DNA from: Anaerolinea sp.
GTDB taxonomy: Bacteria; Chloroflexota; Anaerolineae; Anaerolineales; Villigracilaceae
Direction of reading: 5' to 3'
NCBI GenBank assembly: GCA_020723805.1
Contig: DYID01000026.1
Coordinates: 1-45,082 of the forward strand
DNA length: 45,082 nt
A program made the position numbers and the translations under genes. Positions 133-43,520 of this stretch are shown here, piece after piece. The notes beneath the pieces were generated by a model. That model had not been told where the DNA came from, made no database searches, and saw nothing but the letters and a program-made list of their open reading frames with translations. Positions within the stretch are counted from its first letter, which is position 1. Each line of letters begins with the position of its first letter.

Positions 133-2619
133 CTACGGCGCATTAAACCGCCACAACTCCTTGCCGGCGCCGTCGCCTCCGTTGGCGCTGAAGTACAGCC
201 GGTTGTTGTACGACGTCAGATACGAGGGAAACGAATCGCCCGACGGGTTCACATCCGCTGCGAGGCTGGCGCTGGTGCCGTTGAACCTCCACAGTTCGAA
301 GCCTTTGCCGTCGCCGCCGTTGGCGCTGAAGTACAACACGCCGTTGAAGACTGCCAGATGCGAAGGCGCCGAATCGCCTGCGCCGGGGTTGATGTTGGAG
401 GCGAGAGCGGCGTTGGTTCCGTCGTATTTCCAGAGTTCCGTGCCGTTCACGCCGTCGTTGGCGCTGAAGTAAAGGACATCGTTCCAGACCTGCAGGTAGG
501 CAGGGTTGGCGTTGCCCACACCGGCGTTGATGTCGGTCACGCGGACGGGGGGATTCGTGCCGTCGTACTTCCACAGTTCTGTGCCGAAGGTATCGTTGCT
601 GACGGCGCTGAAATACAACGCGCCTTTGTATTCCGCCAGGTGCGAGGGGTTTGAATCGCCCGCGCCGGGATAAATATCGGCGACACGGGTGGTGGTAACG
701 CCGTCCGTCTTCCAGAGTTCCGTGCCGTTCACGCCGTCGTTGGCGCTGAAGTAGAGGAAGCCGTTATAAACGGTCATGTAGGCGGGATTGGCGTTCCCCC
801 CGGCGGGATTGATGTCGGTCAGGCGTCCCACATTACTGCCGTTGAAGCGCCAAAGTTCCACGCCGGCGCCGTCGTTGCCGTTGGCGCTGAAATACAACGC
901 GCCGTTGTAGTCTGCCAGGAAGGCTGGATTCGAGCCTTCGGCGCCGGGGAAAATATCCGCCACACGGCTGGCAGAGTTGGCGGCGGCGTCGTACTTCCAT
1001 AGTTCCGCGCCGGCGTTGTCGTTGCTCACCGCGTTGAAATATAGGACGTTGTTGAACACCGCCAAATACGAGGGGTTGGAGTCTGCGCTGCCGGGGTAAA
1101 TATCTGCCGCTCGTTCAGTGGCAGATACCGGCGCGGCAAGAGCGAGTTCGAGCGTGTAGCGGCGGTCGGCGGCAGAAACGTTGACCACGTCCACGTAATA
1201 ACTGCCGTTGGCGGGCAGGCTTCCGCTCCATGTCAGCGTGTTGTTTTGAGGCTTCAGGACGATGTTCCCGCCGACTTGTGTCACCGCCAGTTCCAGCCCG
1301 CCGTCGGGCGCGGTGAGGACGGCGCTGAGGGTCTGTCCCTGTGCGGCGGTGAAGACGTAGCGCTCTTTGCCCTTGGATGGGGTGATGGTGCCGGAGAGGG
1401 TGACTTTGGAGCCGGCGGTCAGGCTGAGCGGAATCGGCTCCGACCCGCCGCTGACGGGATTGCCGTCTGCCGAGTTGATCGGCACGCGAATCCTGTCGCC
1501 GCCTGTGACGGTGGAGATGGTTTGATTCGCCTCTTTCAACACGTCCACGCGGGCGTTGTAGCGCTGAGCGATGCTCTCCCATGTGTCGCCTGCCTGGGCG
1601 GTGATGAAAATAACGCACGGCGGACCATAGATTTTGCCGTTGCTGCCGATGTTCGGAACGGTCAGGACATCCACGGGCCAGATTTTGGCGGGGTCTTTCA
1701 CCTGCGGGTTGGCATTGCGCAGGGCGTTGAAGTCGGCGCCGTAACAGCGGGCGATTTGAAGCATCCATTCGCCGGGTTGCACGTCGTGTTGGATGGTGGC
1801 GCCCTTGGTCAAGCCGGAGGGGGGCGTTCCGCTCGATACGGTGGTGTTGGTGACGGTCACGCTGAACGGTTGATTCGTGGTTGCTCCGCCGCCCGAGGCT
1901 TCGAAGGTGAAGGTGAGTTGTGTGAGCGCGCGGTCACTGTCTTGGATGTTGTACACGCTCGTGCAGGAAAACGATGCGCCTGCCGCGAGCGTCGTATCCG
2001 CCCCGCCGCAGTTGATTGTTCCTATGCGGCTCTCGCGCAGGGTGAACTGGGCGGGTCCCAGCGCGGTCGCGCCGGTGTTTTGAATCGTGTAGGCGAGCGT
2101 GATGGAGGAAACGGCGTTACTGTAACTTGTCGGGCTGGCGGTAACGGTCAGGGCGAGGACGCGGGCAAGCGTCATCGGCACGTTGGTGGTGACAGTATTG
2201 GACGTAATCCCCCCGGCGCTGGCGGTAGCGGTACTGGTCACTGAACCGGCGTTCAGGTCGGCTTGGGTGATTTGATACGACCCGGCGCAGTCCAGGCTTT
2301 CGGTTGGGTCGAAAGAATCGTTCAGGTTGCCGACGGTGTTGACCGCCGGGCAGGAGACAGCGGCGACTTTTGTGTCGGTCACGGTCACAGGTCCGCTAAG
2401 AGCCGTGTTGCCGGCGTTGGTCACGGTATAGCGAAAGACAATCGTCTGCCCAACGGTGTTGAACGTCCCGCTTTGCGCCTGGACGTTCAACGTCAACGCC
2501 GCTCCATCTCCTCCTGAAAAGACGGCTTGCTGGGTTTCGGGCGCGCCGCCGAGGTTGCAGGCATACAGGAGAGCCGCAAAAATCAGAACGATGACGCCGA
2601 GGGTAAGGAACTTTGACAT
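133..2619 (-). CDS. Secreted lipoprotein with two LysM domains and seven ELWxxDGT repeats
   Basis: This is a probable surface lipoprotein. A signal peptide of hydrophobic residues ends in a lipobox (LLYAC). Two Ig-like DUF11/CARDB-type repeats follow, with the phrase YTVTNAGNTALSG, then two LysM domains, one beginning HDVQPGEWMLQIA and one with AGDTWESIAQRYN. Next is a pre-peptidase C-terminal-like beta domain. The C-terminal third has seven repeats of about 45 residues with LYFSAN and ELWKYDG or ELWRFNG cores. That is the ELWxxDGT family, thought to form beta-propeller-like folds. LysM suggests peptidoglycan binding. The start at 2619 is preferred because AAAGGA lies 8 nt upstream; an in-frame ATG at 2628 has no properly spaced site. 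No enzyme domain is seen, so the function is unknown, probably binding or adhesion. Confidence 0.85.
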   Translation of the reverse strand: MSKFLTLGVIVLIFAALLYACNLGGAPETQQAVFSGGDGAALTLNVQAQSGTFNTVGQTIVFRYTVTNAGNTALSGPVTVTDTKVAAVSCPAVNTVGNLNDSFDPTESLDCAGSYQITQADLNAGSVTSTATASAGGITSNTVTTNVPMTLARVLALTVTASPTSYSNAVSSITLAYTIQNTGATALGPAQFTLRESRIGTINCGGADTTLAAGASFSCTSVYNIQDSDRALTQLTFTFEASGGGATTNQPFSVTVTNTTVSSGTPPSGLTKGATIQHDVQPGEWMLQIARCYGADFNALRNANPQVKDPAKIWPVDVLTVPNIGSNGKIYGPPCVIFITAQAGDTWESIAQRYNARVDVLKEANQTISTVTGGDRIRVPINSADGNPVSGGSEPIPLSLTAGSKVTLSGTITPSKGKERYVFTAAQGQTLSAVLTAPDGGLELAVTQVGGNIVLKPQNNTLTWSGSLPANGSYYVDVVNVSAADRRYTLELALAAPVSATERAADIYPGSADSNPSYLAVFNNVLYFNAVSNDNAGAELWKYDAAANSASRVADIFPGAEGSNPAFLADYNGALYFSANGNDGAGVELWRFNGSNVGRLTDINPAGGNANPAYMTVYNGFLYFSANDGVNGTELWKTDGVTTTRVADIYPGAGDSNPSHLAEYKGALYFSAVSNDTFGTELWKYDGTNPPVRVTDINAGVGNANPAYLQVWNDVLYFSANDGVNGTELWKYDGTNAALASNINPGAGDSAPSHLAVFNGVLYFSANGGDGKGFELWRFNGTSASLAADVNPSGDSFPSYLTSYNNRLYFSANGGDGAGKELWRFNAP

Positions 2620-38527: not shown

Positions 38528-38712
38528 GGGGATTCTCCTTTTGTGTATGGGTTTGCAAAATTAATATACAACAACCTGCCAGCCAGAGGAAAGAAAGACT
38601 CTTCCTCAAACCTTGCATTTACTTAACAACCGCTCCGCCTCCCGCTGGACCTTCAGCCTGGTTCTGTCTCGAGGAGGTTTTTCCACCCGTTTCCTCATCG
38701 CCGGTTAGTTTG

Positions 38713-38721
38713 TGCTATAAT
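38713..38721 (+). promoter_or_regulatory. Extended -10 promoter of the aspS-asnS operon
   Basis: TGCTATAAT, a perfect extended -10. The start is expected near 38728, six nt before the leader-peptide ATG at 38734. No -35 is recognisable. The gap to aspS is over 220 nt and filled by the attenuator. Confidence 0.7.
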
Positions 38722-38733
38722 GCCGCCATCTTT

Positions 38734-38817
38734 ATGGCATACCAGGCTTTCTTCGCCAACGATAATAATAACGACAATAACGATCCCCGAATCGTTGGGC
38801 GAAGCCTGGCTGGTTGA
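38734..38817 (+). CDS. Asn/Asp-rich leader peptide of aspS-asnS (27 aa)
   Basis: A short ORF from ATG to TGA begins about 6 nt after the predicted transcript start and has no Shine-Dalgarno site. Its centre reads NDNNNDNND: nine consecutive Asn or Asp codons (six Asn, three Asp) encoded by AAC, GAT, AAT, AAT, AAC, GAC, AAT, AAC, GAT. The two genes downstream encode aspartyl- and asparaginyl-tRNA synthetases, so both codon types match the regulated enzymes. The codon run sits between segments 1 and 2 of the attenuator, and the stop codon lies just past segment 2. This is the arrangement expected for ribosome stalling to control transcription. The peptide itself probably has no function. Confidence 0.8.
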   Translation: MAYQAFFANDNNNDNNDPRIVGRSLAG

Positions 38818-38884
38818 CGAAAACCTGAAGTCGAACTTCATCGCCCAACGTGGAGACAAGACACCACGAAGGGCGATTTATTTT
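38742..38884 (+). promoter_or_regulatory. Three-state transcription attenuator of aspS-asnS
   Basis: There are four mutually exclusive pairing segments. 1:2 is CCAGGCT..TCGCC-AACGAT (38742-38763) with ATCGTT-GGGCGA-AGCCTGG (38791-38809). 2:3, the antiterminator, is CGTTGGGCGA (38793-38802) with TCGCCCAACG (38841-38850), 10 perfect bp. 3:4, the terminator, is TCGCCC-AA-CGTGG (38841-38853) with CCACG-AA-GGGCGA (38864-38876), followed by TTTATTTT. A small TGAAGT/ACTTCA hairpin sits between 2 and 3. Stalling in the Asn/Asp run would free segment 2 to pair with 3 and allow read-through. No T-box motif is present. Confidence 0.8.
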
Positions 38885-38898
38885 GTAACGACCCACCG

Positions 38899-38933
38899 TC
38901 TCGTAGAACAAGTCTGTAACTTGTTCTGCGAGA
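38899..38933. repeat. 14-bp hairpin just upstream of aspS
   Basis: TCTCGTAGAACAAG (38899-38912) pairs over its whole length, with one G-T pair, with CTTGTTCTGCGAGA (38920-38933). It has no T run. Its GTAG..CAAGTCT/ACTTG core resembles the hairpin at 7627-7654. It ends 23 nt before the aspS ATG and could affect mRNA stability, or simply be a dispersed repeat. Confidence 0.6.
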
Positions 38934-38955
38934 TCACAAATTTCGGAGGCGCATT

Positions 38956-40722
<1,767 letters not shown>

Positions 40723-40791: not shown

Positions 40792-42132
40792 ATGACAGTT
40801 ATCCGCGTTGACGAAATTGCAAAATATGTCGGGCAGGAAGTGACCGTGCGGGGCTGGGTCTATAACCGCACCGATAAGGGAAAACTGGTCTTTCTGCTGG
40901 TGCGCGACGGCACGGGCTTTGTCCAGTGCGTGGCGTTCAAGGGCGACCTCGAGGCTGAGGTCTTTGACCGGGTGATGCGCCTGCCGCAGGAGTCGTCGGT
41001 GATCATCACGGGCGCAGTGCGGGAGGATAAGCGCGCGCCCGGCATCCCCGGCGGGTATGAAATCGGCGTGAAGCAAATCGAAATCGTGCAGGAGGCGGCG
41101 CTGGATTACCCCATGGCGCTCAAGGATCACGGCGTGGACTTTGCCCTCGACAACCGTCACTTGTGGATTCGCTTCCCCAGCCAGTGGGCAATCCTGCGTG
41201 TGCGCGTGAGGGTCATGTCGGCAGTGAGGGAGTACCTCGACAGTCACGGCTTCTTCAACCTCGACACGCCCATCCTCACGCCCGCCGCCGCCGAAGGCAC
41301 GACCACCCTATTCGAGACCGAATACTTCAACGAGGGCAAGGCATACCTCGCCCAAACGGGACAACTCTACAACGAGGCAAACATCTTTGCCTTTGGGAAG
41401 GTGTATTGCTTTGGTCCCACTTTCCGCGCCGAGAAATCGAAGACGCGCCGCCACCTGACCGAGTTCTGGATGCTCGAACCCGAAATCGCCTTCTGCGACC
41501 TCGACCAGTTGATGGAAATCGAGGAGGGTCTTATCACCCACATCGTCCAGACGGTTCTGCGCGACTGCGCGGCGGAGTTGAAATTCCTCGAGCGCGATGT
41601 GACCAAACTGCAAGCCATTACCCCGCCCTTCCCGCGCATGTCCTATGACGACGCGGCAAAATACCTCATCGAACTCTACGAAAAAGAAACCGACCCCGAA
41701 CGCAAGGAATTGCTCAAGTTCGAGTGGGGCATGGATTTCGGCGCGCCGCACGAGGTGGAATTGACCAAACTGCACGACAAGCCGCTCTTCGTCTATGGTT
41801 ACCCCAGCGCGGTGAAAGCCTTTTACATGGAGCCGTGGCCGGGACGCCCCGAAGTCTGTAAATCGGTGGATTTGCTCGCTCCCGAAGGTTACGGCGAAAT
41901 TTGCGGCGGTTCCGAGCGCATGAGCGACTACGACAAACTGCTGGCGCGTATCCGCCAGGAGGGTTTGCCGGAGGAGGCGTTCAAGTGGTATCTGGAATTG
42001 CGCAAGTATGGCTCGGTGCCTCACTCCGGTTTCGGCATGGGCGTGGAGCGCGTCGTTGCGTGGCTGTGCGGTATCGAACACATCCGTGAAGCGATTCCCT
42101 TCCCGCGCACCATCAAAAGGGTGTATCCGTAA
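40792..42132 (+). CDS. asnS: Asparaginyl-tRNA synthetase
   Basis: A class IIb synthetase of 446 aa, the usual length for AsnRS. It has an OB fold with VTVRGWVYNRTDKGKLVFLLVRDGTG (residues 17-42), motif 1 around FFNLDTPILTPAAAEGTTTLFETEYF, motif 2 FCFGPTFRAEKSKTRRHLTEFWMLEPE-like (residues 204-230) and motif 3 GFGMGVERVVAWLCGIEHIREAIPFPR. AsnRS is told from AspRS by the missing GAD insertion and by the AEGTTTLF and EKSKTRRHLTEF segments. The ATG has GAGGAG upstream. It is the second gene of the aspS-asnS operon, which ends at a strong terminator. Confidence 0.97.
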   Translation: MTVIRVDEIAKYVGQEVTVRGWVYNRTDKGKLVFLLVRDGTGFVQCVAFKGDLEAEVFDRVMRLPQESSVIITGAVREDKRAPGIPGGYEIGVKQIEIVQEAALDYPMALKDHGVDFALDNRHLWIRFPSQWAILRVRVRVMSAVREYLDSHGFFNLDTPILTPAAAEGTTTLFETEYFNEGKAYLAQTGQLYNEANIFAFGKVYCFGPTFRAEKSKTRRHLTEFWMLEPEIAFCDLDQLMEIEEGLITHIVQTVLRDCAAELKFLERDVTKLQAITPPFPRMSYDDAAKYLIELYEKETDPERKELLKFEWGMDFGAPHEVELTKLHDKPLFVYGYPSAVKAFYMEPWPGRPEVCKSVDLLAPEGYGEICGGSERMSDYDKLLARIRQEGLPEEAFKWYLELRKYGSVPHSGFGMGVERVVAWLCGIEHIREAIPFPRTIKRVYP

Positions 42133-43340: not shown

Positions 43341-43520
43341 GTGTCCCTGCGGTGTGCGTGATGTTGCACTCCCCGTTTTGAGCCAACACCCACTTTTAGG
43401 GTCTCAAACTCCTAAGAAATAACGCGATAGGCCTGAGCCAAGGCGGCGTTTCTGGGTCGGGACCCACCTGCGAAAGCAGGTTCAAAACTCCGCAACACAC
43501 GGCACTTGCGGGGCAATGTC
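43341..43520 (+). ncRNA. ssrS: 6S RNA
   Basis: This is a rod-like RNA of about 180 nt that mimics an open promoter and binds the housekeeping RNA polymerase. The closing stem pairs CCCTGCGGTG (near 43345) with CACTTGCGGGG (near 43504). The helix continues with TGTTGC/GCAACA. An asymmetric bulge follows, and then GTTTTGAGCC (43375-43384) with GGTTCAAAAC, joined by an inner arm of about 90 nt. The order GTTGC...CTCCCC...TGAGCC on the 5' side and GGTTCAA...GGCAC on the 3' side matches the E. coli 6S pattern. A promoter and a strong terminator frame it. RNase P, SRP and tmRNA signatures are absent. The identification rests on structure and short motifs. Confidence 0.8.

Follow-up and report, generated by a model that had tools for sequence, protein, structure and literature searches.

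The aspS-asnS locus of an Anaerolinea sp. genome (GenBank assembly GCA_020723805.1; Chloroflexota, Anaerolineae, Villigracilaceae) is preceded by a short leader open reading frame (ORF) rich in asparagine and aspartate codons and by three alternative RNA pairings. The best explanation of this arrangement is very likely a bivalent ribosome-mediated transcription attenuator, for which no expression, transcription start site (TSS), term-seq or Ribo-seq data are available. The parts of the leader, their conservation, their codon content, the covariation of the 2:3 and 3:4 pairings and the gene context are shown by sequence and comparison. Sensing of both amino acids, given an attenuation mechanism, is a likely inference. 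The window referred to below is the whole analysed stretch of DNA, positions 1 to 45,082 of contig DYID01000026.1 (45,082 nt).

All elements of the leader are located on the + strand. An extended -10 promoter element (TGC-TATAAT, 38713-38721), a motif that also precedes the leaders of many relatives, is followed by a leader ORF of 27 codons and a TGA (38734-38817), predicted to be leaderless, with its ATG at 38734-38736, 12 nt after the -10, and its stop codon at 38815-38817; the encoded peptide is MAYQAFFANDNNNDNNDPRIVGRSLAG. The control codons (38758-38784) are nine consecutive Asn and Asp codons in the order N D N N N D N N D, and the 3.69-Mb genome contains three uninterrupted runs of nine RAY triplets, this leader being one. 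Segment 1 (38742-38763), which pairs with segment 2, lies 5' of the control codons and overlaps the first of them. Segment 2 (38791-38809) can be the partner of segment 1 or of segment 3, and the stop codon begins 5 nt past its end. Segment 3 (38840-38853) serves either as an antiterminator arm with segment 2 or as the 5' arm of the terminator with segment 4 (38864-38877), the 3' arm, and the U-rich tract of this intrinsic terminator is located at 38876-38884 (AUUUAUUUU to 38884). The 2:3 pairing (38793-38802/38841-38850, 10 bp) shares the segment 3 arm with the terminator and is thus mutually exclusive with 3:4. A distance of 138 nt, containing the terminator, separates the stop codon of the leader ORF from the start of aspS (38956-40722), which encodes aspartyl-tRNA synthetase of 588 aa (NCBIfam NF001750, 849 bits, cut-off 443; TIGR00459, 750 bits) and has a Shine-Dalgarno sequence, GGAGG (38945-38949), absent from the leader ORF. 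The next gene, asnS (40792-42132), encodes asparaginyl-tRNA synthetase of 446 aa (NF003037, 525 bits, cut-off 414; TIGR00457, 453 bits). The preliminary description had reported the extended -10, the 27-codon ORF with its nine Asn/Asp codons, the three pairings and the U-rich tail at these positions, and had identified the next genes as those of AspRS and AsnRS; all of this held, the gene identities being supported by NCBIfam models above cut-off.

A longer frame rich in Thr and Ile, opening at an upstream ATG (38720), was rejected, as this start codon shares nucleotides with the -10 and should be absent from the transcript. The interval between the terminator and aspS contains a second inverted repeat without a U-tract (38898-38934), and in relatives (L005, L011, L013 and others) the same interval carries different palindromic REP-like repeats, of the types GTCATTGCGAGG.. 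and CACAAAGGACAC... A 6S RNA (RF00013, 74.8 bits) is encoded elsewhere in the window, at 43341-43518 of the + strand.

In the proposed mechanism, the leaderless start, translation, stalling, an OR-type response to Asn and Asp, termination and readthrough are all inferred. The transcript would begin at or a few nucleotides from the leader ATG, and a ribosome would initiate on it without a Shine-Dalgarno sequence. When either Asn-tRNA or Asp-tRNA is scarce, the ribosome would stall within the run of Asn and Asp codons, covering segment 1 or occupying the loop of 1:2, and segment 2 would be left free for segment 3; the resulting 2:3 antiterminator would allow transcription to proceed into aspS and asnS, and in many relatives into gatCAB as well. 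When both tRNAs are charged, the ribosome would reach the stop codon beside segment 2 and block 2:3, and 3:4 would terminate transcription near 38884. Without translation, 1:2 would form and 3:4 would again terminate, a state that corresponds to the minimum free energy (MFE) structure.

The leader ORF is probably leaderless, a conclusion inferred from sequence alone without TSS data. The spacing of TATAAT and ATG in the window places the predicted transcript start about 5-6 nt before the ATG, and such leaderless-type spacing leaves no room for a Shine-Dalgarno sequence. All 86 leaders identified in relatives (see below) start with ATG. A -10-like hexamer was present in 83 of them, the distance from it to the start codon being 6-13 nt in 71/83 (mode 9) and 14-21 nt in 12/83; the script favoured starts near such a hexamer. 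Several leaders with the longer spacing (L016, L043, L292, G479 and G485) have TGAGGCAAGAATG, a short leader with GAGG. A leaderless start, if true, would turn the very 5' end of the mRNA into the sensor.

Upstream regions for comparison were obtained from 41 genomes searched with the AspRS of the window (30 loci), from a contig scan (23 of 80 loci used, five duplicates and L038 being omitted and the rest being either not Chloroflexota or unused), from 396 genomes of the class (24 new loci) and from 60 further stretches, mostly one to few per family. The final scoring covered 164 regions, 157 upstream of aspS, mostly from Anaerolineae, and seven upstream of asnA. Ninety-one aspS regions scored 4 or more, seven of which (L205, L227, L047, L198, L201, L206 and L242) were dropped by eye as lacking a promoter and/or a leader-like context, while two regions with a score of 3 (L211 and L284) were added by eye, giving 86 leaders with 83 distinct peptides. 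This set includes close relatives and single genomes present in two collections. The leaders were selected for their N+D content and not for the presence of both residues.

An Asn/Asp-rich leader ORF is conserved in the family of the window genome (f1). Small ORFs with an N/D score of at least 5 in a 10-residue window were found on the coding strand in 26/84 aspS upstream regions, two of which (L205 and L227) were discarded later, and in 0/84 on the reverse strand. All 18 aspS upstream regions of the family scored 6 or more, as expected if the Asn/Asp-rich ORF envisaged in the preliminary description is a conserved feature; it was mostly absent outside the family, where 11/66 aspS upstream regions were judged leader-bearing and no leader was seen in the other 55. 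The recurrent layout in the family consists of TGCTATAAT, a short gap, ATG, and FA followed by the AAY/GAY run, then TCGTTGGGCGAAGC, the stop codon, TCGCCCRACG, a loop and GGGCGATTTATTTT. Beyond it, scores of 5 or more accompanied by a -10-like hexamer and a terminator found by script occur in families f4, f6, f8, f9, f10, f11, f18 and f36; in f14 (L024) the score is likewise at least 5, with promoter and terminator identified by reading alone, and weaker leaders (score 3-4) are present in f7, f24, f67 and f71. Six distant Chloroflexota loci (L054 of Dehalococcoidia, L055 of Roseiflexaceae, L056 and L059 of Ktedonobacterales, and L061 and L066, class unstated) showed no Asn/Asp leader, a sample too small to conclude from.

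A covariance model of segments 2-4 with the 2:3 structure (R1) matched 33 of the 396 class genomes, 25 of these belonging to the window's family. No genome of the window's family among the 396 seems to be without a match. As a class-wide detector the model failed, missing known divergent leaders in other families. Of its eight weak matches outside the family, five were inspected, four of these proving unrelated and the fifth being that of G219 described below; G263, G292 and G328 were outside the inspection. In a larger sample of the family, R1 matched 116/150 genomes at E <= 0.001, with at least one false match (G486, E 5.8e-4, unrelated on inspection), and the 34 genomes without a match were not inspected individually. 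G019 contains a further R1 match (C32), which comprises nothing more than a terminator. In G219 (L259, about 200-700), a small ORF with Pro codons, MKRGNSLSTQQYPIPSGPVACGAVSLAG, and a terminator precede a ProRS-like gene, named by reading, and a Pro leader is possible there.

Some leaders contain only 2-4 control codons in ten, and some genera of the family (e.g., G434, G449, G455 and G468) have short runs such as DNNN, NNNDN or DDNNN. A terminator was found by script for 81/86 leaders, at a spacing of 49-64 nt between stop codon and U-tract in 75 of the 81; the one assigned to L030, with a spacing of 27, probably reflects a chance stem.

The RNA pairings of the window leader are supported by folding. 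The terminator folds at -19.5 kcal/mol (z -5.7, with 0/200 shuffles as good), the pieces forming 2:3 and 1:2 have z-scores of -3.65 and -3.5 (1/200 shuffles as good in each case), and the MFE structure of the whole leader combines 1:2 with 3:4 (z -4.5). Compensatory changes, proposed as a check on all three pairings in the preliminary description, support 2:3 and 3:4 and not 1:2. In an alignment of 28/37 leaders (A2; L002, L006, L014, L017, L019, L020, L021, L026 and L027 were omitted as redundant or poorly alignable), the 2:3 helix is paired in 98.2% of cells, compared with 21-40% in slid controls, and two-sided changes affect 4/10 of its pairs, a number reached by 0/500 shuffles. The 3:4 helix is likewise paired in 98.2% of cells, with two-sided changes in 3/10 pairs (1/500 shuffles). 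In neither 2:3 nor 3:4 did the number of additional pair types in this alignment exceed that in shuffles (468/500 and 261/500, respectively, reach the count). For 1:2, 91.8% of cells pair in an alignment of 30/37 leaders (A1, the seven most divergent omitted), where no two-sided change was detected; this pairing is kept in close relatives without compensatory change and therefore rests on their sequence conservation. A duplex test against shuffled segments, performed on 78/83 leaders (the script had found no terminator in the other five), supported 2:3 in 65/78 and 1:2 in 47/78 at p <= 0.05, leaving 13/78 and 31/78, respectively, not above shuffles. Divergent leaders retain 2:3 with a changed sequence, as in L025, where CCGGGCGGGA is able to pair with TCTCGCCCGG. 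Relatedness among the sequences means that the shuffle counts, like the Fisher value given below, overstate significance.

The codon content of the aspS leaders points to both amino acids. All 83 distinct leader peptides contain both Asn and Asp, and in 82/83 both residues are present inside the densest 10-codon window. The residues N, D, K and E are represented in these windows by 407, 206, 6 and 2 occurrences, respectively, so that K and E make up 8/621; the choice of the densest N+D window itself depresses K and E. In the whole leader peptides the corresponding numbers are 438, 225, 46 and 13 of 2118 residues. The first codon position varies between A and G while the third stays pyrimidine, the pattern that selection for Asn and Asp would produce. 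Segment 2 also lies within the ORF, mostly in one of two main frames, and its conceptual translation is VGRS-like for 49 leaders, RWAKPC-like for 10 and different again for 24, indicating that the run and not the tail of the peptide is kept at the protein level.

A natural control is provided by asnA, encoding asparagine synthetase A (PF03590), upstream of which R1 also matched. This gene is present in 7/150 genomes of the family and is preceded by a paralogous leader in all seven, six found by R1 match and that of G005 by reading. The N:D ratio is 47:2 in the asnA windows versus 407:206 in the aspS windows (Fisher p 1.7e-6, ignoring relatedness). In 6/7 genomes the asnA window contains no Asp, while the aspS window of the same genome contains 2-4; the exception is G485, with two Asp in each. 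For instance, G014 has FNNNNNNNN at asnA versus NDNNNDNDD at aspS, and G459 has IANNNNNNNNNR versus FANINDDHDNR, its asnA adjoining aspS and each gene having a separate leader. The contrast between asnA, read almost as Asn alone, and aspS, read as Asn and Asp, is the best evidence that each operon has a codon mix suited to it, and hence for bivalent sensing. The asnA leaders thus add independent support to the earlier interpretation of the aspS leader as an attenuator reading both Asn and Asp, the regulation itself being inferred. The pairing of an Asn-only leader with an Asn and Asp leader in one genome represents a natural test of the relation between codon choice and the shortages that are read.

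A weak R1 match in G446 led to lysC, encoding aspartate kinase. Thirty lysC upstream regions (L294-L323) were drawn from 36 family matches, and 26 of them contain an ATG-started small ORF with at least five Met or Thr in ten residues, e.g., MTMTTTTS, with an internal Met in 25/26; the reverse strand of the same regions yielded such Met/Thr ORFs in 0/30. A -10-like hexamer is located shortly before the Met/Thr ORF in 18/30 and a terminator was found by script in 15. A further example of such an ORF upstream of lysC is present in L282 (around 1608-1850, minus strand). The Met/Thr ORF has the look of a second bivalent attenuator leader.

The genes downstream of the aspS leader differ in their relation to GatCAB. 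No GatB was found in the window genome, where asnS directly follows aspS. In the nine regions examined, asnS shares the strand of aspS and lies some kilobases beyond it; gatB is located between the two genes in eight of them (G006, G009, G010, G011, G013, G015, G016 and G020) and elsewhere in G024. In the eight regions gatB is accompanied by GatA-like, mostly GatC-like and sometimes DapB-like ORFs; GatC, GatA and GatB of G011 and DapB of G009 were confirmed with NCBIfam and the other ORFs were named by reading. An opposite-strand ORF is inserted between gatB and asnS in G006 (ClpB-like) and G016, so a single transcript reaching asnS is doubtful there. The coexistence of AsnRS and the GatCAB route is known in some bacteria (PMC4206432).

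Among the 30 AspRS loci inspected, the motif RDHG was found in all 24 GatB-bearing genomes and TFGG in five others (G000, G005, G014, G019 and G023, the window's genome among them), none of which has GatB; G037, also without GatB, has NHGG. We take the RDHG/TFGG motif to mark the AspRS type by its use of tRNA-Asn, discriminating versus non-discriminating; this residue is not mentioned in the relevant sections of PMC4206432. A change in tRNA discrimination alongside the loss of GatCAB is possible in the TFGG genomes. G432 and G446 (L274 and L275) each contain two aspS genes, of the HRYRDHGG and HNFRTFGG types, flanking GatA/GatB-like ORFs, and each of the two has its own Asn/Asp leader. The leader system would also offer a view on charging balance in lineages with and without GatCAB.

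Other synthetase genes of these genomes are associated with T-boxes. T-box matches were detected in 41/41 relatives searched, 32 of them above the Rfam cut-off. The genome containing the window has five matches, four of which are located just upstream of ileS, pheST, thrS and serS; those of thrS and serS are below the cut-off, the genes were identified by reading the encoded proteins, and the fifth was not inspected. One cell thus has T-boxes at some synthetase genes and a leader ORF at aspS.

Several other explanations of the leader can be considered. The most resilient, still unlikely, is that the attenuator is real and senses Asn-tRNA alone, the Asp codons being neutral substitutes that a single nucleotide transition separates from Asn codons. 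In its favour, Asn outnumbers Asp 407:206, the control codons begin with Asn in 70/83 leaders, AAY and GAY differ by a single transition, and the asnA leader of G485 also contains Asp. However, Asp is kept in 83/83 aspS leaders against two Asp to 47 Asn in the asnA windows, and neutral Asp would drift alike in both sets, with the reservation that merely seven asnA leaders are known.

According to a second alternative, the run is an A-rich unstructured spacer, and the terminator is switched by some other factor, either protein or metabolite. The location of the run inside the loop closed by 1:2, where low structure helps, is compatible with this idea, which is nevertheless very unlikely: third positions are pyrimidines, Lys and Glu are nearly absent from the windows, most leaders place the run in the reading frame of an ATG close behind the promoter, this frame shifts relative to segment 2 among relatives, and codon identity follows the downstream gene (N at asnA, M and T at lysC). 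A spacer that is merely purine-rich is ruled out by the codon phase.

Equally improbable is a role of the ORF in translational coupling or re-initiation for aspS, or of its peptide in trans. Small upstream ORFs have been proposed to raise the translation of the next gene (PMC4833913). Coupling is opposed by the terminator and the 138 nt between the ORF stop and aspS and by the GGAGG of aspS itself, and action in trans by the different frames in which the peptide outside the run is read among relatives. Control by a T-box or another known RNA family, with the leader ORF incidental, draws support from the T-box matches in all 41 relatives and is all but excluded, as an Rfam search of 38600-38990 (E up to 5) returned no match besides a 10.9-bit snoRNA on the other strand, the RF00230 model gave no T-box match upstream of aspS, and none was reported in the window.

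A bivalent attenuator at aspS-asnS thus remains the preferred reading, and it admits a bolder extension towards which the balance tips only slightly when all its claims are taken jointly. In the Anaerolineae, the aspartate branch would be governed by a family of attenuators that are leaderless and often multivalent, with Asn and Asp read at aspS-(gatCAB)-asnS, Asn at asnA, and Met and Thr at lysC. Read by translation, this family would parallel the T-box regulon of the same cells, having arisen apart from proteobacterial attenuators, and the codon mix of each leader would encode an OR-gate for those tRNAs that are served by its operon.

A search of the open-access literature (subscription papers excluded) revealed no Asn/Asp leader and no such attenuator in Anaerolineae, and T-boxes alone are described there for Chloroflexota; the earlier statement that no dual leader of this design was known in Chloroflexota thus met no counterexample in that literature. 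The attenuation of amino acid and aminoacyl-tRNA operons was reportedly the subject of a comparative study (Lopatovskaya et al., 2010). A survey of 2013, which suggested a gamma-proteobacterial origin, listed attenuators specific for His, Leu, Thr, Trp, Ile/Val and Phe (PMC3766115).

The mycobacterial leaderless Cys-rich small ORFs, proposed as attenuators (PMC4633059), share with the Anaerolinea leader a leaderless small ORF, clustered relevant codons and a matching downstream gene. They differ in the amino acids, the phylum and the target genes, and three alternative pairings are not described in the relevant sections of that paper. T-box riboswitches share with the proposed role of the leader the reading of tRNA charging and the control of synthetases by antitermination; in contrast to them, the sensor here would be a codon run instead of a bound tRNA, and neither the sequence nor the structure of a T-box is present.

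The closest resemblance is to the ribosome-mediated attenuators of enterobacteria (trp, his and pheST; thr and ilv), which likewise combine an ORF with control codons, the 1:2, 2:3 and 3:4 pairings, a U-tract and a stop codon beside segment 2. Multivalent reading exists among such systems, the thr leader containing Thr and Ile codons and the ilv leader those of Ile, Val and Leu. The Anaerolinea leader differs from them in its Asn/Asp specificity, the synthetase genes of two amino acids downstream, the Chloroflexota host and a probably leaderless start. Overall, the anatomy is that known from ribosome-mediated attenuators, the bivalent Asn/Asp control codons being the new part and regulation by them being inferred; if this reading is true, classical attenuation extends to Asn and Asp, to a two-synthetase operon and to the Chloroflexota.
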